Below, one piece after another: positions 1 to 25,249 of a DNA stretch of 32,918 bases (position 1 is the stretch's first letter; each line of letters opens with the position of its first letter). The stretch lies in assembly GCA_903851235.1 (NCBI GenBank), contig CAINNR010000020.1:1-32918 (forward strand), given 5' to 3'. Made by a program: the position numbers and the translations under genes. This DNA comes from an uncultured Candidatus Berkelbacteria bacterium (lineage in GTDB: Bacteria; Patescibacteriota; UBA1384; XYA2-FULL-43-10; CAINNR01). The notes beneath the pieces were generated by a model. That model was not told the origin of the DNA and ran no database searches. It worked only from the letters and a program-made list of their open reading frames with translations.

Positions 1-220
1 CGAAGGAGTCAACACAAAACTTAAAACTATTAAACGCTTATCATATGGTTTTAGAAATATTGATAATTACATTAGAAAGGCAATGCTTGCTTTCATTCCA
101 ATTAGTCTACTTTTATCACATTACTTGACATAGAGCCACCAGTCAATTGACAAATAATAATATATATGCTATCGTACTGACATAACTCGCGAAAGTCGAA
201 AGTTGAAAGGAAGATTTGTG

Positions 221-742
221 ATGACCGATGGGGTAGATAACCGTTCCAAAGCAGTTGGTTGGCTTAACCTGGCAAGAAGTCGAGCAAACAAGCAGAGAGT
301 CGACCTCGAGATCTCTAACCTTCGGGAGTATGCCAACAAAGCTGGTTGCACACTCGAGGATCTCGGCACCAACGAGGAGGAGCTAGGTGCACTGATCATT
401 CAAAGCCACCGCTCCGAAGCGGTCAGTTGGCTTCGTTTGGCTAGGATGCTAGCAAGTGATGGGGAGATCAAAGCTGAGATCGCTTACCTCCGGGGGTATG
501 CCAGCAAAGCTGGCTGCACACTCGAGGATCTCGGTACCAACGAGGAGGAGTTGGACGCGCTGATCATTCAGGGCAACCGCTCCGAAGCCATTATGTGGCT
601 CGGTCTGGCGAGAGAGCGTGCAAACAGGAAGGATATCAAAACTGAGGTCAGTTGGCTTCGGCAGTTCGTCAGTCTAGCTGGTTGCACACTCGAGGATCTC
701 GGCACCAACGAGGAGGAGTTGGCAGCGCTACAGTCCAAGTGA
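221..742 (+). CDS. Hypothetical protein made of three tandem ~56-aa repeats
   Basis: ATG at 221 after AAAGGAAG; internal repeats RSEAVxWLxLAR...AGCTLEDLGTNEEELxALIIQ; followed by a terminator hairpin. The ORF track start at 203 is an upstream TTG. Confidence 0.8.
   Translation: MTDGVDNRSKAVGWLNLARSRANKQRVDLEISNLREYANKAGCTLEDLGTNEEELGALIIQSHRSEAVSWLRLARMLASDGEIKAEIAYLRGYASKAGCTLEDLGTNEEELDALIIQGNRSEAIMWLGLARERANRKDIKTEVSWLRQFVSLAGCTLEDLGTNEEELAALQSK
242..742 (+). repeat. Three in-frame tandem repeats with 168-bp period (242-409, 410-577, 578-742)
   Basis: GCTGGYTGCACACTCGAGGATCTCGGYACCAACGAGGAGGAG recurs at 341, 509 and 677 (exact 168-bp spacing). Confidence 0.95.
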
Positions 743-4573: not shown

Positions 4574-4648
4574 TTGACCTTAGAATAGTAATGTGGTATA
4601 TTCTATCTGTCATAATAACCACACTAGACATGGAAGGGTGACGAGCCA

Positions 4649-5104: not shown

Positions 5105-5192
5105 CATTTCCCCGCCAGTGTACTTTTCCACTGGTTTTTTTTTATCTTTTGTGGTATATTATCTGCAAGTCAGAAAATGGAGGAGTGATCAC

Positions 5193-5777
5193 GTGGATAT
5201 CACCATGCCGGCGTCAGCACGGCTGGAGTTTAGACTTGAATGTGTGAAGCGCGCCATAGTAGAGTTTCCTCATCTTTTCCTGTGCGACGAAAGAAAAACC
5301 GCCAATAGCAATTTCTGGTTAGCGATCAATCAAATTCCACTGGAGTACAGAACAATGTTATTGGTGTTGAAATTTGCTCGTTTTAACGATGATATTACCA
5401 ATCAAGGTAAGGAAATCGTCGGTGATTTTGGCGAAAAAGTCGGAAAAACATCACTCCTTCCGATTCTTATTCCACGATCACCAATCACCAAAGACATGCC
5501 TACTCATGGCTCACAAAATCGAGGGGCAGTGTTTTCACAGGGAACCATTTCAACCTTTGTGCAAGACTTTGGTGTTTGCGACCCTGAAACCAATGATGAT
5601 CAAGTTTTTCGAGTTTCGCCCCAAGAGATCGGGTTTCTCGCGACTGCAAAACACGTGTACGTTTATCCGCGTGAGATTATTGACATTGTCGTTTACGAGG
5701 AAGTACCAAAATATCTTAACGACAGTCAGAGAGATTACGTTAATAATTTCTACAGATATCTGGCTTCATCAGACTAG
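5193..5777 (+). CDS. Hypothetical protein (GTG start)
   Basis: SD ggaggag 9 nt before GTG 5193; TGTGGTATATT promoter upstream. Confidence 0.75.
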   Translation: MDITMPASARLEFRLECVKRAIVEFPHLFLCDERKTANSNFWLAINQIPLEYRTMLLVLKFARFNDDITNQGKEIVGDFGEKVGKTSLLPILIPRSPITKDMPTHGSQNRGAVFSQGTISTFVQDFGVCDPETNDDQVFRVSPQEIGFLATAKHVYVYPREIIDIVVYEEVPKYLNDSQRDYVNNFYRYLASSD

Positions 5778-5892
5778 ACAGTTTCCTCGGCTTGCCTCTT
5801 CGGCGGCCGTTTTTTTATCTCGATTGACAAAAAGTCACATCAATGTTAAATTATTAGCAATGCAACTAACAGTTGTAAAGGGAGGAGTCGCA

Positions 5893-6144: not shown

Positions 6145-6232
6145 TGTTGTTCAGATTGTTCATTACCCTCGGTTCGCCAACTCGGTGGCCGTTTTTTTAT
6201 TGATTATATGAATAAATAATATATACTATAAT

Positions 6233-15573: not shown

Positions 15574-15617
15574 GTAACGATCATAGCAGAATCGATATCA
15601 ATTATGAATAAAAAAAT

Positions 15618-15636
15618 GCCAGCGGGAAACGCTGGC
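15618..15636 (-). terminator. Array A terminal hairpin (R0)
   Basis: gccagcg-ggaaa-cgctggc with T tract on the minus strand. Confidence 0.85.
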
Positions 15637-15654
15637 GGGAAAATGCTAAGCCGG

Positions 15655-16125
15655 CTAGGCTTTTGGTGGTTCAAATGAAGTTCCTGCAGGCTCGTCACCG
15701 AAATCGAATTTGAGACTGGTTAATTCTTCACTCAGTAATTGGCATGTGTCAAGATAAGTGACTTTAGTTCCACTTCGTAGCCAAATCTGCCCAGGATCGG
15801 ATAGTTCCCTTAAATTGATTGTACCCTCTACTGGTTCACGGTCCCCAAAAGTGATTGTAATTTCTTTGCCTACCAGGGTTTCCGGCTTGGTGTGCATCAA
15901 CTTACAAAGCCGTAAAAGGTCATGGTCAAGATCGGCATTGGCTGCAGCTTTAGGCGTTCGAATTATCAATTCGCCATCACCAATGTCACAAACCGTGCCA
16001 GATTTCCTTAACACGCCGGCATGCTCTAGTATTTCCTGCAAATAATCGTCCGGCTGTTCCGCGGAGTCAGACCTAAAAATGATTTCTTCTCCAGGAATGA
16101 TGAACTGACCTATTCTTCGTTCCAT
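15655..16125 (-). CDS. Array A gene 1: 'IIPGEEIIF' family protein
   Basis: SD GGAAGGGTGATGTGACG-ATG; MERRIGQFIIPGEEIIFRSDSAEQP..GTVCDIGDGELIIRTPKAAA. Confidence 0.8.
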   Translation of the reverse strand: MERRIGQFIIPGEEIIFRSDSAEQPDDYLQEILEHAGVLRKSGTVCDIGDGELIIRTPKAAANADLDHDLLRLCKLMHTKPETLVGKEITITFGDREPVEGTINLRELSDPGQIWLRSGTKVTYLDTCQLLSEELTSLKFDFGDEPAGTSFEPPKA

Positions 16126-16160
16126 CGTCACATCACCCTTCCGCGCTTGATGTTGCATTG

Positions 16161-16210
16161 TACAGAATATACCACATAAGATAAGAAAAATGCCAGCGGG
16201 AAACGCTGGC
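16161..16210 (-). repeat. Array A terminator+promoter junction R1
   Basis: GCCAGCGTTTCCCGCTGGCATTTTT...TATGTGGTATATTCTGTA (minus strand). Confidence 0.85.
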
Positions 16211-16240
16211 GGGGAAAGGTTTGATTGGATTGATTAGATG

Positions 16241-16528
16241 TTATCTTCGAATTGCTTCTATGGATCCAATACAGGTGCTGATTATTGAGAGAATGATTAT
16301 TGCCGACATTGTGGCCTTAGTCTCGTAAGGAACACTGGCATTACCAAAATAAAAAAGGAAGAAAAAGTTTGTAATGAACCCAACCGAAGCGCATACAAAC
16401 CACGGCACGTAAGAGTCCTGAAATTGCGGGACTTGTTTCTTTTTCATCCAAAAGCAAAATATCAATCCGATTACACACGCTACCAAGGTAATCAAAATCG
16501 GCCATGCCCACTGTGGCATTCCGTTCAC
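16241..16528 (-). CDS. Array A gene 2: small multi-TM protein (paralogue family)
   Basis: (V/M)NGMPQWAWPILITLVACVIGLIFCFWMKKKQVPQF... Confidence 0.8.
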   Translation of the reverse strand: MNGMPQWAWPILITLVACVIGLIFCFWMKKKQVPQFQDSYVPWFVCASVGFITNFFFLFYFGNASVPYETKATMSAIIILSIISTCIGSIEAIRR

Positions 16529-16549
16529 GATCCTTTCGGAGGGATGTCA

Positions 16550-16612
16550 CATCGCACAGAATATACCACAAAGGATAAAAAAATGCCAGCGGTTGGGCTG
16601 GCGAAGGGGAAT
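16550..16612 (-). repeat. Array A terminator+promoter junction R2
   Basis: + strand: atcgcacagaatataccacaaaggataaaaaaatgccagcggttgggctggcgaagggg. Confidence 0.9.
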
Positions 16613-16633
16613 TGCCGTATCATCAAACTTAAG

Positions 16634-16966
16634 TTACATTTTCCTAGCATTGTTAGATGACACATTTGGATGGTAAGAAATGATTGGTGGACGAAAACCG
16701 ATGATCAAGCCAATAACCAAAATTATTAACGAAACAACGATGCACCACACCCATATTAAGTCAATTCCTTCCGGGTAGGGCTTACAACCTGCAATCCCGA
16801 TAAATGAAACCACGAAGCCAAGCAAACCACTTGCCATCCATGGTGCGTTGGGTACGGGAAATTCCGGTATCTGTCTTTTCCTCAACCAAGAGCAGAGAAG
16901 GTAGCCGATTACCAGCCCCATTTCAGTTGCAAATATCGGTAAAGCCCAATATGGCATGGATTTCAC
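16634..16966 (-). CDS. Array A gene 3: small multi-TM protein (paralogue family)
   Basis: VKSMPYWALPIFATEMGLVIGYLLCSWLRKRQIPEF..PWMASGLLGFV. Confidence 0.8.
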   Translation of the reverse strand: MKSMPYWALPIFATEMGLVIGYLLCSWLRKRQIPEFPVPNAPWMASGLLGFVVSFIGIAGCKPYPEGIDLIWVWCIVVSLIILVIGLIIGFRPPIISYHPNVSSNNARKM

Positions 16967-16988
16967 GTCCCTTCCACGGAGATTATCA

Positions 16989-17051
16989 CATCGCATAGAA
17001 TATACCACAAAGTACAAAAAAATGCCAGCGGTTGGGCTGGCGAAGGGGAAT
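16989..17051 (-). repeat. Array A terminator+promoter junction R3
   Basis: + strand: atcgcatagaatataccacaaagtacaaaaaaatgccagcggttgggctggcgaagggg. Confidence 0.9.
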
Positions 17052-17072
17052 TGTTACGTTAACAAAGTGTGG

Positions 17073-17417
17073 CTACATTTTGTGATGGTTTTCCGGTGTC
17101 TTGTGCGGAAGACAGGTTGTGGTCTTATGAAGATCTCGTTGAAGGACAATCCAGAGCCCGATAAAATCACAGGTAATTGGTACAATAATCGGCAACCCCC
17201 ACAATAATCTGATGAAATAAGGCAAACTGTAGTTAAGGAAATGTGGACCGGAAATACAAATGCCCGGAATTCCACAAACACCGTTCAAAATCCACCAGGC
17301 GTCTGATAAAAAAAATAATCGGTTTCCTTTTCTCCTCAGATACCGCAAAAGTATTGTGCTTGCGATAGAACCACAGATAACAATCAGCACTGGCCAGACC
17401 CATTGCATTGCTATCAT
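17073..17417 (-). CDS. Array A gene 4: small multi-TM protein (paralogue family)
   Basis: MIAMQWVWPVLIVICGSIASTILLRYLRRKGNRLF; SD gaaagga. Confidence 0.75.
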   Translation of the reverse strand: MIAMQWVWPVLIVICGSIASTILLRYLRRKGNRLFFLSDAWWILNGVCGIPGICISGPHFLNYSLPYFIRLLWGLPIIVPITCDFIGLWIVLQRDLHKTTTCLPHKTPENHHKM

Positions 17418-17439
17418 GATCCTTTCATAGTGATTGTCG

Positions 17440-17492
17440 CATCGCATAGAATATACCACAAAGTACAAAAAAATGCCAGCGGTTGGGCTGGC
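17440..17492 (-). repeat. Array A terminator+promoter junction R4
   Basis: Almost identical to R3: atcgcatagaatataccacaaagtacaaaaaaatgccagcggttgggctggc. Confidence 0.9.
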
Positions 17493-17525
17493 GGTAAAGG
17501 TTAAGCCGTTTGAGGCTTTTGGGTG

Positions 17526-17954
17526 CTAGTTAAGAAGTTCAACTTTCGGATCACCTATGAAGAAATGCGATAAGTAGAGGATAGTATGTATTTTGGTAGC
17601 TAAATTTAACACATGGAGTGAACCATCGATTACGTCGTCGATATAATATACACTGGCTTCTTTGCTCTCGAAAGTGAATCTTAATTGCTTACCTTTCAGA
17701 CCGTTTGGATCTTTCATAAACTGCTCAATGATCTGATAAATCTGCTCGCGATTTTCGGCTTTGGCTGCTGCTTCTGGTGTGCGGAGTATTAGCTCGCCAT
17801 CGCCGATGTTACAAACCGTGCCAGGTATCCTTAGGACGCCGGCATCAAAAAATATATTACGCAAAGGTTCATTTTGCTGCGCCGGGAAGTCAGACTTAAA
17901 AATGATTTCTTCCCCAGGAATAATTATTAATCTCCCAATCATTCTCAGTCCCAT
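17526..17954 (-). CDS. Array A gene 5: 'IIPGEEIIF' family protein
   Basis: SD GGAAGGGTGATGCGCA-ATG; MIGRLIIIPGEEIIFKSDFPAQQ..GTVCNIGDGELILRTPEAAA. Confidence 0.8.
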   Translation of the reverse strand: MGLRMIGRLIIIPGEEIIFKSDFPAQQNEPLRNIFFDAGVLRIPGTVCNIGDGELILRTPEAAAKAENREQIYQIIEQFMKDPNGLKGKQLRFTFESKEASVYYIDDVIDGSLHVLNLATKIHTILYLSHFFIGDPKVELLN

Positions 17955-17985
17955 TGCGCATCACCCTTCCAAATCAGATATCGCA

Positions 17986-18036
17986 ACGCATAGAATATAC
18001 CACAAAGTATAAAAAAATGCCAGCGGTTGAGCTGGC
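17986..18036 (-). repeat. Array A terminator+promoter junction R5
   Basis: + strand: acgcatagaatataccacaaagtataaaaaaatgccagcggttgagctggc. Confidence 0.9.
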
Positions 18037-18068
18037 AAAAGGGAAATGGTTGTGATATTAGAGGTAAA

Positions 18069-18404
18069 TTACGTTTTGTGAGTTGTATCAGACATTGCTT
18101 TAGGAGATTGAGAAGTGAATGGTGGGTTAAGCATGGCGATACTCCAACCAACAATCATGATGACAAACGAAGCAACAACACACCAAGCCCATATTGGATT
18201 GATCCCTTTTGGAAAGGATTGGTTGCAAGCAATCCCAACCATCGCAAAGACAAATCCGAACAAGCCACTTCTCATCCAGAGTGTGCCCGGTGCTAGATAT
18301 TGCGGAACTTGTTTCCTCCCCATGATGTAACAAAATATCAACCCGATTGTGCACCCAGCCAAAGTGATTACGATCGGCCATGACCCTTGTGGCATTGCTA
18401 TCAC
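18069..18404 (-). CDS. Array A gene 6: small multi-TM protein (paralogue family)
   Basis: MIAMPQGSWPIVITLAGCTIGLIFCYIMGRKQVPQYLAPGTLWMRSGLFGFVFA. Confidence 0.8.
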   Translation of the reverse strand: MIAMPQGSWPIVITLAGCTIGLIFCYIMGRKQVPQYLAPGTLWMRSGLFGFVFAMVGIACNQSFPKGINPIWAWCVVASFVIMIVGWSIAMLNPPFTSQSPKAMSDTTHKT

Positions 18405-18430
18405 GGTCCTTTCGGCTTAATGTCACATAG

Positions 18431-18450
18431 CACAGAATATACCACAAAAT
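18431..18450 (-). promoter_or_regulatory. Array A 5'-most promoter (R6), no terminator half
   Basis: Minus-strand TTGCAA-N17-TATATT with TGTGG extension. Confidence 0.75.
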
Positions 18451-18576
18451 AGTTTGATTTGCAATAGAAAATTTGCTATTATAAAGCAAGTCGTAAGTCT
18501 TAATCCAGTAAGTCATAGGCGAGTTCAAAAATGCTTTTGCTTAAAACTTACAAACTTGCGAGCTTAAAACTTTTAT

Positions 18577-21107: not shown

Positions 21108-21129
21108 GCACACGCGGGTTGGCGTGTGC
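21108..21129 (-). terminator. Array B hairpin T1
   Basis: gcacacgc-gggttg-gcgtgtgc with A/T tract on the minus-strand 3' side. Confidence 0.9.
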
Positions 21130-21139
21130 AATGAAAGTT

Positions 21140-21553
21140 CTAGTTTGTTATTTCGGCAAGTGCGGCTTCTGCCGCCGCAAGCACCTCATTGATAATCGTT
21201 TCGGGATGAGGTTTTCCTTTGTGTTGCAAAGTTATGTGCTTTGTCTGCTGTTGTTTAATTTCATCAGAATAATGTTCGGTAAGCTTTTCCAGCAGTAATC
21301 GGATTTGCTCGGCAAGTGGTCCAGTAAGATCATTGTAACAACAACCCAGCATACAACAGCTACAGAAACTGCAATCATTGTTTTTGCTGTCATAAAACCT
21401 AACCAAAATTATATCACCACCAATTGAAATAATGACCGATGTGTCACCGAGCACCATTTTGAATATTGTGAACATTGGGAATGCACTGCAATCCCATCTC
21501 TCCAGTGGAAGACCATTCAAAGTCCCAATCAATCTGCTGACTTCGCCAGCCAT
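21140..21553 (-). CDS. Array B gene 1: small Cys-rich-loop protein
   Basis: MAGEVSRLIGTLNGLPLERWDC...CSFCSCCMLGCCYNDLTG...INEVLAAAEAAL; SD aaggat. Confidence 0.75.
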   Translation of the reverse strand: MAGEVSRLIGTLNGLPLERWDCSAFPMFTIFKMVLGDTSVIISIGGDIILVRFYDSKNNDCSFCSCCMLGCCYNDLTGPLAEQIRLLLEKLTEHYSDEIKQQQTKHITLQHKGKPHPETIINEVLAAAEAALAEITN

Positions 21554-21575
21554 TTGGACCGCATCCTTCACAGCG

Positions 21576-21617
21576 TGATAATTCAGCATTTGGAATATAC
21601 CAAATGCTGAATTATCA
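21576..21617. promoter_or_regulatory. Perfect 18-bp inverted repeat enclosing the -10 of array B gene 1
   Basis: TGATAATTCAGCATTTGG-AATATA-CCAAATGCTGAATTATCA; minus-strand -10 TATATT is the 6-nt centre. Confidence 0.85.
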
Positions 21618-21660
21618 GTCAAGACCTAAGAGTAAACCAAATATAATCGAACTAAAAAAA

Positions 21661-21682
21661 GCACACGCAGGTTGGCGTGTGC
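21661..21682 (-). terminator. Array B hairpin T2
   Basis: gcacacgc-aggttg-gcgtgtgc. Confidence 0.9.
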
Positions 21683-21692
21683 AAAGACGGTT

Positions 21693-22103
21693 CTAACTGG
21701 GGGGATTTTGGTTCATAAAAGATTCTATGAAGCTTTCGGCAACTTCGTCTCTTGAAACATCGACAGTCGGCTTCGGTCCCCCAAATTTCCTCAATTCTTC
21801 CAATTCGTTGGAAAAATGATCGCGAAGTTTTTCGTAAAGTGCGAGAAGTTTCTTTGACACCTCATCGCAAATATGCCCATCACCATCAAAAAGCGGATCA
21901 ATATCATATGAGACACTCTGGGGATGAAAAAAAATGCTGAGAGGATAATAGCTGTTGGAAAAAATCAAAGTCGTGTTTCCAGATGTAAGACAAAAAGTAG
22001 GTACGTATGAGCAACGATTGACTTCCCACTGATCGGGAGTTGTCGCGACAATCGCATCCACTAACCGGATCAAAACTTCATTACCCGTAACTTGCTTAGA
22101 CAT
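21693..22103 (-). CDS. Array B gene 2: small hypothetical protein related to genes 1 and 3
   Basis: SD aaggaga, ATG 22103; similar layout (W near residue 27, amphipathic helix, EV.ESFI C-terminus). Confidence 0.75.
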   Translation of the reverse strand: MSKQVTGNEVLIRLVDAIVATTPDQWEVNRCSYVPTFCLTSGNTTLIFSNSYYPLSIFFHPQSVSYDIDPLFDGDGHICDEVSKKLLALYEKLRDHFSNELEELRKFGGPKPTVDVSRDEVAESFIESFMNQNPPS

Positions 22104-22141
22104 GGCATTCTCCTTCAACGGCGGTGATATTTCGCAGATGA

Positions 22142-22171
22142 AGTATAGCAAGAACCGGAAAGCTTTGTCAA
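22142..22171 (-). promoter_or_regulatory. Sigma70-like promoter of array B gene 2
   Basis: TTGACA-N18-TATACT. Confidence 0.8.
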
Positions 22172-22178
22172 TAAAAAA

Positions 22179-22200
22179 GCACACGCGATTTGGCGTGTGC
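22179..22200 (-). terminator. Array B hairpin T3
   Basis: gcacacgc-gatttg-gcgtgtgc. Confidence 0.9.
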
Positions 22201-22208
22201 GTAGTGCT

Positions 22209-22625
22209 TTATGCGGGATTTGTGCCCTTGATCGTTGCCAAAACTTCTTCGATAATGTTTTGTGCTGTAGGTGGATTATTTTCAATCCTTAAGCGTCTTG
22301 CTTCGCTCTCGATCTTCTGTTGCTGAATTTCTTCGTCAAAATGTGCCCCTAGCTTTTTTACCAGCCCATATAGCTTTTGCTCGTTATCTCCCGAGATTCT
22401 GGTATAGTCGCATGACCGCTCGAGGCATGAACAAGTTGTTACACATCCTCGTTCTTTGCTAATTGGTATCATCGTCATACCCATGTTGTTGGATGAGATT
22501 ATTACAACTCTTCTCCCGTCGATGTTTAACACAAATTGCTCCTCAATGTCACAGGCACCGATACTCCAGTATTCAATTGGCAGTTGGGCCAACTCGTCAA
22601 TAAAATCTGAAAGAAGCTTGTCCAT
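22209..22625 (-). CDS. Array B gene 3: small Cys-rich-loop protein
   Basis: MDKLLSDFIDELAQLPIEYWSIGACD...CVTTCSCLERSCDYTRISG...IIEEVLATIKG. Confidence 0.8.
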   Translation of the reverse strand: MDKLLSDFIDELAQLPIEYWSIGACDIEEQFVLNIDGRRVVIISSNNMGMTMIPISKERGCVTTCSCLERSCDYTRISGDNEQKLYGLVKKLGAHFDEEIQQQKIESEARRLRIENNPPTAQNIIEEVLATIKGTNPA

Positions 22626-22662
22626 TTGGGCACCTGTTTCCCTAGGATGGCACGACAGGGGA

Positions 22663-22691
22663 AATATAACAAAAATAGTATTATTTGTCAA
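22663..22691 (-). promoter_or_regulatory. Sigma70-like promoter of array B gene 3
   Basis: TTGACA-N17-TATATT. Confidence 0.85.
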
Positions 22692-22709
22692 TATCAATCA
22701 ACAAAAAAA

Positions 22710-22729
22710 CACACGCTGGCCGGCGTGTG
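22710..22729 (-). terminator. Array B hairpin T4
   Basis: cacacgc-tggccg-gcgtgtg. Confidence 0.9.
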
Positions 22730-22743
22730 CGTGAAATCGTTTT

Positions 22744-23115
22744 CTACTCATCGACTGAAATTAGATCTTTTCCAATCCATGGAATGATTAAACCTCTTGC
22801 ATGACATCCATCAACGATTTTCATCCAAAGTAAAAAGACACGTTTGTCGCCACTGAGCAGAGTATCACATCTCTCATTTGTGTAACACTCAATTTTGTAA
22901 TCACCTAGACCGGTGAAAACGACCTGCAGACTAACTCTAATGTTCTTATCTGGTATGTCCATGGGATCCCGAATGAGTATCAGAGGCAGATTACCAAAAT
23001 AAAATATTCGCCTGAATGGATAACGGTATAGCATTTTCAATTGATCATCGGGACATTGCATGGCTTGGTTGAACAAACTACGAATGGCTAACCACAGTTT
23101 GATTGTTTTTAGCAT
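22744..23115 (-). CDS. Array B gene 4: hypothetical protein
   Basis: ATG 23115 after gcgggtg; leader shared with gene 3. Confidence 0.7.
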   Translation of the reverse strand: MLKTIKLWLAIRSLFNQAMQCPDDQLKMLYRYPFRRIFYFGNLPLILIRDPMDIPDKNIRVSLQVVFTGLGDYKIECYTNERCDTLLSGDKRVFLLWMKIVDGCHARGLIIPWIGKDLISVDE

Positions 23116-23154
23116 CCGTTGTCACCCGCTTTCTTGTGATGGTGCGACAGAGGA

Positions 23155-23183
23155 AATATAGCAAAAATAATATTATCCGTCAA
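23155..23183 (-). promoter_or_regulatory. Sigma70-like promoter of array B gene 4
   Basis: TTGACG-N17-TATATT. Confidence 0.8.
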
Positions 23184-23257
23184 AAATATTTACTTTATTT
23201 CATTGTTTGTGATATATATTATGTAGCGCAAGCGACAACTATTGGGAGGCGGTTGGA

Positions 23258-24145
23258 ATGACCGACGCCAGGACCGAAGTCGAATGCAATAAAGTCATCT
23301 CTAACTTACGAAGTGCTAAGTTTTGGTGGTCGGGAGGGATTGTGCCAATCCAATATTTCGTGATATTCATTCTGCACTTCTTTCTCTGGGCACTTGTTGC
23401 TCCAGTGGTCCGACAATTCTTCCCAAATGCGACATCAGACGCGGAAAAGATGAACATTGATGGTTGGTGTGGCTATGTAATAGCGGCGATACTTGTTGTG
23501 GTGACCATCTTGGTTTTTGGAGGGCGAAAAAAAGCCTATGACAACGCCAAGAGAGTTTTCGGGAACACTTTTAAGGGTGTCGCGTTGGTAGTTGTTGATA
23601 ACTATCGAAAATACCACGCATTTTACCAACAGATGGATGTTGCTTGCAAACCGGATGTTGTTTTGCCGGCACGCAGCAATTTTGACGGTGATTGCAGTTT
23701 GGAAAATGAGCTTGGCGTTTCAGCCAAGGTCGTGATTACTTTTACTTCCGGCAAAAGATATTTTTCTATGCTGCCAATACCGGCGCTTCAGTCTGCGGTT
23801 GAGGTTGTCGAGGACGTAACAATCGCTAACATAGGCTATCCTGATACTGTTGCCCAGATGTTGTCGTGGTATCCACATGGCGACGACTCGATTATTAAAG
23901 TGGTTGAGTCGTGTCTTGTATCGCGCCTTTATCGCGCAAAAAGTTTGGCAACGTTTTGTGATGTTCGTCCTTTTGATGAACGGCTAGGAGACCCAGTTGA
24001 TCGATTTGAAGCAGCATTAGAGGAGTGTGGTAATGCGCTTCTGACAAACGATGTTGTTAAGGACCCGTTTGGTGTCAAGGTTACTGTTGGCAAAGTTAGC
24101 GGAAGTACCTCACTCACAAGGGCAAAAGCATTTGCGACTGAATAA
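23258..24145 (+). CDS. Membrane protein, two TM segments plus C-terminal soluble domain
   Basis: SD gggaggcgg, ATG 23258; terminator cggcg..cgccg-T7 downstream. Confidence 0.75.
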   Translation: MTDARTEVECNKVISNLRSAKFWWSGGIVPIQYFVIFILHFFLWALVAPVVRQFFPNATSDAEKMNIDGWCGYVIAAILVVVTILVFGGRKKAYDNAKRVFGNTFKGVALVVVDNYRKYHAFYQQMDVACKPDVVLPARSNFDGDCSLENELGVSAKVVITFTSGKRYFSMLPIPALQSAVEVVEDVTIANIGYPDTVAQMLSWYPHGDDSIIKVVESCLVSRLYRAKSLATFCDVRPFDERLGDPVDRFEAALEECGNALLTNDVVKDPFGVKVTVGKVSGSTSLTRAKAFATE

Positions 24146-24204
24146 TTATCCGACGGCGGAAAGCTACAAACTCTTCGCCGTTTTTTTATTATCTATAAAA
24201 AAAA

Positions 24205-24225
24205 GCACACGCGAATTGCGTGTGC
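24205..24225 (-). terminator. Array B hairpin T5
   Basis: gcacacgc-gaatt-gcgtgtgc. Confidence 0.9.
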
Positions 24226-24236
24226 TGTGTGAATGA

Positions 24237-24683
24237 TCAGCCGTGGAAGTTATAGCATTGAAAGTCTTGGTTTTCGTCATCAAATACCACCCAGTGGTAA
24301 AGATTCAAAATGCGGAGTTCGTAAATTGTGTCATCTGATAGAATACTGCGCCGACGCAGTTTGAGTGTAGTTTCATCATCAGTTGATATTCCAAAGAAAA
24401 GCCCTGCTTTTGCCATAGCTATTACGGTTTCCTTCGGAGACTCAAGCGCAAATCCCTTGAAAAACAGCCATTTGGCGGCGGTAGGATTTGCTGCCACCAT
24501 ATAAGTCAACAAGTCGTCTAGTGATCTGAATTGGGGGACGATTGCAATTTTGCCGTCGGGCTTTTCCCACGCACAGTACGGATAGCCGGACGTAGTAATG
24601 ACACCAAACTCATATATGGCGAAGTTTATCTTCTCTTGAAAAACCACATTATATTCCGGCAATCGCATGAGAGACATTACCAT
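24237..24683 (-). CDS. Array B gene 5: hypothetical protein
   Basis: VAANPTAAKWLFFKGFALESPKETVIAMAKAGLFFG shared with gene 6. Confidence 0.75.
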   Translation of the reverse strand: MVMSLMRLPEYNVVFQEKINFAIYEFGVITTSGYPYCAWEKPDGKIAIVPQFRSLDDLLTYMVAANPTAAKWLFFKGFALESPKETVIAMAKAGLFFGISTDDETTLKLRRRSILSDDTIYELRILNLYHWVVFDDENQDFQCYNFHG

Positions 24684-24724
24684 ACAGATCACGCCTTTCG
24701 TGGGCGAGTTTAGCCAACACAAGC

Positions 24725-24753
24725 AATATAGCAAATATTATTTTAGCGGTCAA
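24725..24753 (-). promoter_or_regulatory. Sigma70-like promoter of array B gene 5
   Basis: TTGACC-N17-TATATT. Confidence 0.8.
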
Positions 24754-24781
24754 CGGTTTTAAATAAGCAAGAATAAAAAAA

Positions 24782-24800
24782 CACACGCGTGAAGCGTGTG
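24782..24800 (-). terminator. Array B hairpin T6
   Basis: cacacgc-gtgaa-gcgtgtg. Confidence 0.9.
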
Positions 24801-24805
24801 CTGGA

Positions 24806-25249
24806 TTAGGAATTTGGAAAGTCGCAGTGATAGTAATCTGTGCTAACATCTGTTACACAATTCCAGCCGTAATGCTTCAAAAGGTTAATCGTTTCTGTAT
24901 TCGATTTGTAGATTTTAATTCCCTGACCGTTTGAAGTTTCTTCCACCGTACCGTAAATGATTTTGGCTTTTACCATTGCGATTATGGTTTCCTTCGGGTG
25001 TTTGAGCAACAACCTTTTATTTAGCAGCCAACCGGCGGCGGTTGGGTTAACTGCTACCAGTTCCATAAGCAATTCATCAGTGGAATTGTGATCCCAGTCA
25101 CCTTCTGCCCATTTCACTTTATTTCCTTCGCGCCAGGCAAGATATAAATACATGTGATGACCGATACCGGAGACCACTCCAAGTTCATATCCATTGTCCT
25201 GGAAAACAACATAACGGAAATCACATCTGTCGGCGAGCAAACTCAACAT
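24806..25249 (-). CDS. Array B gene 6: hypothetical protein
   Basis: VAVNPTAAGWLLNKRLLLKHPKETIIAMVKAKIIYG; SD ggaggt. Confidence 0.8.
   Translation of the reverse strand: MLSLLADRCDFRYVVFQDNGYELGVVSGIGHHMYLYLAWREGNKVKWAEGDWDHNSTDELLMELVAVNPTAAGWLLNKRLLLKHPKETIIAMVKAKIIYGTVEETSNGQGIKIYKSNTETINLLKHYGWNCVTDVSTDYYHCDFPNS

Follow-up and report, generated by a model that had tools for sequence, protein, structure and literature searches.

In T4-type phages, promoter-early stem-loops (PeSLs), which combine a promoter with a stem-loop terminator, recur between small and mostly unknown open reading frames (ORFs) in regions of intense shuffling, and the shuffling of modules by recombination between these repeats has been reported (PMC4503421). 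In archaeal viruses, the pre-ORF motif of HGTV-1 consists of a TATA box-like region and an inverted repeat, for which a PeSL-like action was proposed (PMC3950731), and the class I intergenic repeats of halovirus HF2 are 56-58 bp long and have proven promoter activity (PMC8707807). In this study, which was based on 32,918 nucleotides from an uncultured Candidatus Berkelbacteria bacterium (contig CAINNR010000020.1 of assembly GCA_903851235.1; this whole stretch is the window to which the positions refer), we describe array A, a series of six small genes on the minus strand at 15.6-18.45 kb that are separated by composite terminator-promoter junctions. Our interpretation, to which we assign a probability of roughly 0.6, is that array A is a hypervariable chromosomal island of six monocistronic modules, with a recombinational copying of the junctions that was independent of the ORFs, at a site that was ancestrally occupied by a single gene of the family that we call P.

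Comparison with described systems

Array A resembles a PeSL region in its anatomy, as it has a composite repeat of a promoter and a terminator stem-loop between small ORFs. Unlike the PeSLs, which were reportedly the subject of work by Arbiol et al. in 2010 and Comeau et al. in 2014, it is flanked by core genes of a bacterial chromosome and has no phage genes; its genome holds several array-specific junction families where a phage has one early promoter, and we infer its shuffling from sequence comparison. Its chromosomal position, the lack of phage similarity and its array-specific junction sequences exclude array A from the PeSLs. With HGTV-1 and HF2 it shares repeated promoter-bearing intergenic elements before many small ORFs; these, however, are archaeal viruses, and the consulted sections of the two papers do not describe a bacterial terminator that overlaps the next promoter. 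Array A also resembles the cassette arrays of integrons in its tandem single-gene modules of unknown function, its hairpin-forming separators and its hypervariable site. Unlike in integrons, the integrase IntI is absent (best score in the genome 86.8 bits, cut-off 265), there is no common attC-type site of a single family, and the modules are not promoterless cassettes, as each has a promoter of its own, and an integron cassette array was therefore rejected. Phage morons are single genes that are flanked by their own promoter and terminator, while polyimmunity-type loci are tandem paralogues of small, fast-evolving genes. Array A differs from both in that it has no prophage context and no immunity or toxin family was detected in it. 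A search of the literature did not find such arrays reported for the Patescibacteria, which does not prove their absence.

Organisation of array A and its junctions

The genome that bears array A (G000) is a draft of 1.04 Mb in 39 contigs. The window is chromosomal, with gyrB and gyrA present and conserved synteny. The array has the order M1-P1-M2-M3-M4-P2 and its genes belong to two orphan families, M (M1-M4), whose products are predicted to be membrane proteins with three helices, and P (P1, P2), whose products have about 150 aa, with no detectable similarity to each other. M1 (18069-18395, minus strand, as are all of the features of the array) is an ORF for a 108-aa orphan protein with three predicted transmembrane segments; M3 (16634-16957; 107 aa) and M4 (16241-16519; 92 aa) have 38% and 37% identity to it, respectively, and M2 (17073-17408; 111 aa) is the most divergent member of its family, with 21-31% identity to M1, M3 and M4 (shuffle z of 7-10). 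Overall, the M proteins are 92-111 aa long with pairwise identities of 21-38% in global alignments. P1 (17526-17954; 142 aa) is similar to P2 (15655-16125; 156 aa), which adjoins the conserved downstream gene, with 39% identity globally and 49% over 96 aa.

From stop to start, the five spacers are 114-117 bp long and contain a conserved core of about 54-65 bp, whose copies are 82-95% identical in pairs. The core comprises a GC-rich hairpin, a T tract and an extended -10 element, TGGTATATT. All six hairpins have a GCCAGC/GCTGGC stem followed by the T tract and predicted energies of -11.5 to -13.5 kcal/mol, a stability that shuffled sequences never reached. In a consensus scan, the predicted -35 hexamer, CTGGCA, is supplied by the 3' arm of the hairpin, at a spacing of 18 bp that includes the T tract. 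Since the same arm doubles as a -35-like hexamer, the terminator and the next promoter are predicted to overlap. This holds for all five junctions, namely M1|P1 (17994-18037; hairpin 18018-18037, promoter 17994-18023), P1|M2 (17450-17492; hairpin 17475-17492, promoter 17450-17479), M2|M3 (16999-17041; hairpin 17024-17041, promoter 16999-17028), M3|M4 (16560-16602; hairpin 16585-16602, promoter 16560-16589) and M4|P2 (16166-16210; hairpin 16192-16210), in the last of which the loop is of the GTTTCC type and the promoter spacer is longer by 1 bp. The loops are YCAACC after M1, P1, M2 and M3, and GTTTCC or GTTTCCC after M4 and P2, and the bases just past the -10 element, RTGCGATGYGA, are conserved in most copies. 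At its 5' end the array has a promoter without a hairpin (18436-18464; TTGCAA as the -35, 17 bp, TATATT with an extended -10), and at its 3' end, after P2, a hairpin without a promoter (15618-15636), which is identical to the one after M4.

The first-pass annotation, made from the sequence alone, had described six small minus-strand genes at this place with five junctions, each fusing a GCCAGC/GCTGGC hairpin, its T tract and the next promoter. Gene count and position were confirmed, with cores of 54-65 bp, and folding and the promoter scan recovered the same composition of the junction. The clean ends that it had noted were found as well: no hairpin accompanies the promoter at the 5' end (about 18436), and no promoter the hairpin at the 3' end (15618). 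Its view of the repeated unit as a promoter-gene-terminator module is supported by the predicted elements. The finding goes beyond that annotation, which had not noted the alternation of two unrelated families, the earlier presence of a P gene at the site or the local copying of terminators throughout this genome.

With up to three mismatches, the promoter 23-mer TTTGTGGTATATTCTRTGCGATG occurred six times in the whole 1.04-Mb genome, always in array A, while a reversed control of the pattern had no occurrence genome-wide. The 12-mer GTGGTATATTCT was confined to array A and the region upstream of P0 in a 257-kb sample, which led us to reject it as a generic promoter of the genome. P0 (4649-5104, plus strand), in another part of the window, is distantly homologous to P and has the GTGGTATATTCT promoter at 4593; it is followed by a weaker terminator-promoter junction that is related to those of array A (5115-5165, plus strand). 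The exact junction promoter was not found in viral contigs.

Histories of the junctions and the genes

The junctions P1|M2 (17440-17493) and M2|M3 (16989-17042) are identical over 54 bp, in agreement with the near-identity that had been noticed for two of the junctions beforehand, whereas the M2 and M3 proteins have only about 27% identity. Divergence at fourfold-degenerate sites is near saturation (1/12 matching for M2/M3, 5/14 for M3/M4 and 13/25 for P1/P2), and yet 18 of 20 positions outside the stem and the T tract match between the terminators of M2 and M3 (Fisher p = 7e-6). The initial observation of a higher conservation in the junctions than in the ORFs was thus upheld, with ORF identity far below junction identity. 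The promoter and terminator cores of P1, M2 and M3 are nearly identical, even though P1 is of the other, unrelated family. An ordinary tandem array of paralogues was ruled out because the M and P genes are unrelated and junctions of 82-95% identity stand against near-saturated fourfold sites.

One and the same hairpin follows M4 and P2, and it is unlike those that follow the paralogues M1 and P1. Had M1-P1 and M4-P2 arisen as copies of a single block of two genes, the terminators of M1 and M4 would be expected to be alike, as would those of P1 and P2, and the opposite was seen. Thus, the terminators cluster by neighbourhood and not by gene family. The 5' untranslated region (UTR) and the ribosome-binding region follow the gene family, which, together with the grouping of the hairpins by neighbourhood, delimits the copied block as approximately the stretch from the hairpin to the transcript start. 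As junction similarity tracks neighbourhood and not family, a duplication of whole units with equal divergence was rejected. These comparisons give good support to a copying of junction sequence between adjacent modules that was later than, and independent of, the ORFs. Among the three explanations that had been offered for the conserved junctions, recent duplication of cassettes as whole units was not supported, since the ORFs are old and diverged or unrelated. Homologous shuffling at the junction is the best fit, as something that we infer, and selection on the junction is partly plausible through the overlap of the hairpin arm with the -35 but leaves the identical loops, spacers and upstream bases and the array-specific terminators unexplained.

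Neighbouring terminators across the genome

Terminators were scanned for as a hairpin with a T tract in a 590-kb sample of the 1.04-Mb genome, and same-strand neighbours within 2.5 kb were compared with a null in which the terminators were shuffled among positions. The sample had 202 terminators, and 33 of the 142 same-strand neighbouring pairs were near-identical, compared to a permutation mean of 0.46 and a maximum of 3. The identical procedure gave 3/23 in G001, a member of the same genus, 0/36 in G003, which is related at the family level, and, with low power, 0/7 in G004, related at the order level, and 0/6 in E. coli K-12 (200 kb). Some of the near-identical pairs flank paralogues, and many flank genes without detectable similarity. 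Two terminators at locus L040 (1976/2542) share 35/36 nt and two at L059 (9187/9979) share 36/38 nt, both beside dissimilar genes, and at L054 the rplA terminator and promoter are repeated after an unrelated 394-aa gene (74/84 nt). The stem and loop are particular to each array, and the likeness of the terminators is hence one of copying by descent and not of a consensus. In array B (21108-24808, minus strand), which consists of small orphan genes with promoters unlike those of array A, there are six terminators with GCACACGC or CACACGC stems, and these stems are common to at least two gene families. Inside array B, and likewise inside array C, terminators are held in common but promoters are not. 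It appears from these patterns that the copying of terminators, and at times of terminator-promoter junctions, between neighbouring orphan modules is a genome-wide habit.

Several other loci are worth mentioning. In the P0 island of the window, near-identical terminators (CCTCGG...GGCCGTTTTTTTAT; 5769-5818 and 6151-6200) follow two adjacent small genes. An orphan island lies between rplA and rplJ (L054 9900-16100, contig C25), with a junction copy after its first orphan gene. Contig C11 (L041 8945-10250) has a reverse-transcriptase gene (RVT_1) that matched defence-type models of PADLOC, with RT_XIII as the best (E 1.8e-31); the gene has a long 5' non-coding region, and its terminator matches that of the unrelated preceding gene. 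An array of small GAF-like genes lies beside a tRNA-like sequence on contig C36 (L065 3240-7400), and copies of its terminator and promoter were also found at two unrelated genes, which in turn have a promoter sequence in common with each other. Near the start of the window (203-742), an ORF has three tandem repeats of about 56 aa that end in DLGTNEEEL (168-bp DNA repeats).

The array A site in related genomes

Gene order around array A is conserved in G001, G002 and G003. At the site, G001 has a single 95-aa gene, and its promoter is orthologous to the 5'-most promoter of array A (a gap-free alignment of 51 bp with a score of 67, compared to a shuffle maximum of 33), without the RTGCGATG block. 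The terminators of this G001 gene and of P2 share a 17-bp tail, CGCTGGC(A)TTTTTTTAT, which is equalled by about 1 in 2000 shuffles. Thus, in a comparison with one strain per species, two members of one genus hold different genes at this site, and the promoter before these genes is orthologous. A P-family gene lies at exactly this site in G003 (L108:15107-15634), where it adjoins the same downstream gene; past it there is a contig break and a transposase-like sequence before the next gene (L108 15640-15848, L028 1-560). G002 has no gene at the site. The p value for the 95-aa gene against P fell from 0.27 to 0.021 and 0.0041 with a deeper profile, always in the same stretch, which, together with the syntenic position, is suggestive of homology to P. 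By these comparisons, the older occupant of the site is a P gene, and the promoter was in place before the two genus mates split. Only in G000 did we see M genes and the growth of the site to six modules. It had been considered that relatives might have the same fixed gene order with no junction repeats; the relatives that we compared lack the array.

Other intervals also vary in their content. The interval at the Obg/CHAP-like gene has three orphan genes in G000 and none in G001, that between rplA and rplJ has five orphan genes in G000 but a single, unrelated one in G001, and the P0 island is absent from G001. At the position that corresponds to array B, G001 has one gene with a near-identical inverted repeat, ACAGATTTGTGCGCACGTGCGCGTTTGTCTGTAAA, on both of its sides (L027 10411-10470 and 11070-11110), and these repeats resemble the ends of mobile elements.

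The M and P proteins

AlphaFold2, which was run on all four M sequences, predicted three long helices with a mean predicted local distance difference test score (pLDDT) of 66; in M1 these span residues 6-27, 36-58 and 67-89. The predicted fold had no structural matches at E <= 0.001, and the prediction for P, with a mean pLDDT of 43, was unusable. Searches of the M and P families against Pfam, NCBIfam, PHROGs, PADLOC and PDB gave nothing above a curated or convincing threshold, comparison of the array with immunity and toxin families detected none, and neither family had a match in viral contigs or in plasmid and phage collections. In a collection of genome contigs no match to P was confirmed, while a search of 147 relatives with M gave two weak matches (E 6e-4 and 8e-4, in G044 and G112) that were not counted as members; the M family was thus seen in G000 only. 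The Rfam scan gave no match, and the window had no phage DNA match and no credible PHROG match. Small, fast-evolving orphan proteins that are encoded in islands often have a role in defence or in cell-surface interaction.

Discussion

Each module consists of a promoter, a small orphan gene and an intrinsic-terminator-like hairpin, and its predicted terminator overlaps the predicted promoter of the next module. In the mechanism that we propose, the genes would be transcribed individually. Homologous recombination between the junction repeats of about 55-65 bp, whether by unequal crossing-over, gene conversion or the uptake of related DNA, would be the probable route of copying, and modules could thereby be added, lost or replaced while every gene retains a working promoter and terminator. 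Junctions of this length are in principle long enough for RecA-type recombination.

Several observations weigh against this interpretation. In M1 and M4, the 5' UTR and the DNA for the N terminus follow the kinship of the genes, and hence parts of the junction travel with the genes. Array A has six modules, and hence the incongruence is drawn from few characters. Some of the conservation can be selective, owing to the overlap of the hairpin arm and the -35. The control samples hold few terminator pairs (seven in G004 and six in E. coli). With one strain per species, a gain, loss or reordering of modules with a breakpoint inside a junction was not directly seen, and the transcription of array A is a prediction.

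A different explanation is an old tandem duplication of whole promoter-gene-terminator units that was followed by fast divergence of the ORFs under purifying selection on the junction, with no recombination at the junctions. M1-M4 and P1-P2 are true paralogues, the UTRs track the gene family, the 3' arm of the hairpin also serves as the -35, and tandem paralogues with common junctions are found elsewhere, as in the GAF-like array. This scenario nevertheless seems rather unlikely to us, because the unrelated M and P genes have junctions in common, the loop, the spacer and the bases upstream of the hairpin match in spite of near-saturated synonymous sites, and the terminators cluster by neighbour and not by paralogue; moreover, the arbitrary stem and loop of each array are not expected from selection for termination alone. 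A conserved operator or other regulatory site, which would keep the junctions of a co-regulated regulon of single genes alike without any copying, could account for the RTGCGATGYGA bases and for the limitation of the promoter to array A and P0. It does not explain the identical terminator loops and upstream bases, nor the terminators that are shared, without promoters, inside arrays B and C, and the G001 promoter does without the RTGCGATG block, which together make it highly improbable.

The single-gene modules with intervening hairpins, the repeats around unrelated genes and the islands at sites that are empty or differently filled in the relatives also recall an integron- or att-like insertion of cassettes, in which the hairpin would be the recombination site and each arriving gene would bring or duplicate a copy of the terminator. 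We regard this as very unlikely, as the genome's own best score fell far short of an integron integrase, the tyrosine recombinases found amounted to one 319-aa protein, and the hairpin sequence varies by array, hence there is no common site; in contrast to attC, the hairpins are also short and perfect with a T tract, and every module is equipped with a promoter. Repeat-induced mis-joining in a metagenome-assembled genome would be suspected from a draft of 39 contigs with exact 54-bp repeats inside the array. These repeats are shorter than usual read lengths, though, collinearity with G001 and G003 is seen on either side of the array, the P gene of G003 lies beside the same downstream gene, and the pattern recurs at many independent loci, so that an artefact of this kind is scarcely credible.

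Conclusions

The proposed copying of junctions by recombination in array A has a possible broader reading, which we put forward tentatively and with less than even confidence. Array A may be a cellular, chromosome-borne counterpart of the PeSLs, in which islands at fixed sites would be built, in this lineage of Berkelbacteria, from orphan modules of one gene each. Recombination at locally copied terminator-promoter junctions may then be a general route of gene gain and exchange in a reduced genome, without an integrase. The scan for near-identical neighbouring terminators is simple and applicable to any genome. The reduced genomes of the candidate phyla radiation have many orphan genes, for which both their gain and their sustained expression are at issue. 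If the copying of junctions is the route, compact overlapping terminator-promoter repeats would serve as expression parts and as recombination sites at the same time. A single mechanism would then account for the turnover of genes, for their transcription one by one and for where the orphan islands lie, and the idea of the phage PeSLs would be extended to the bacterial chromosome.

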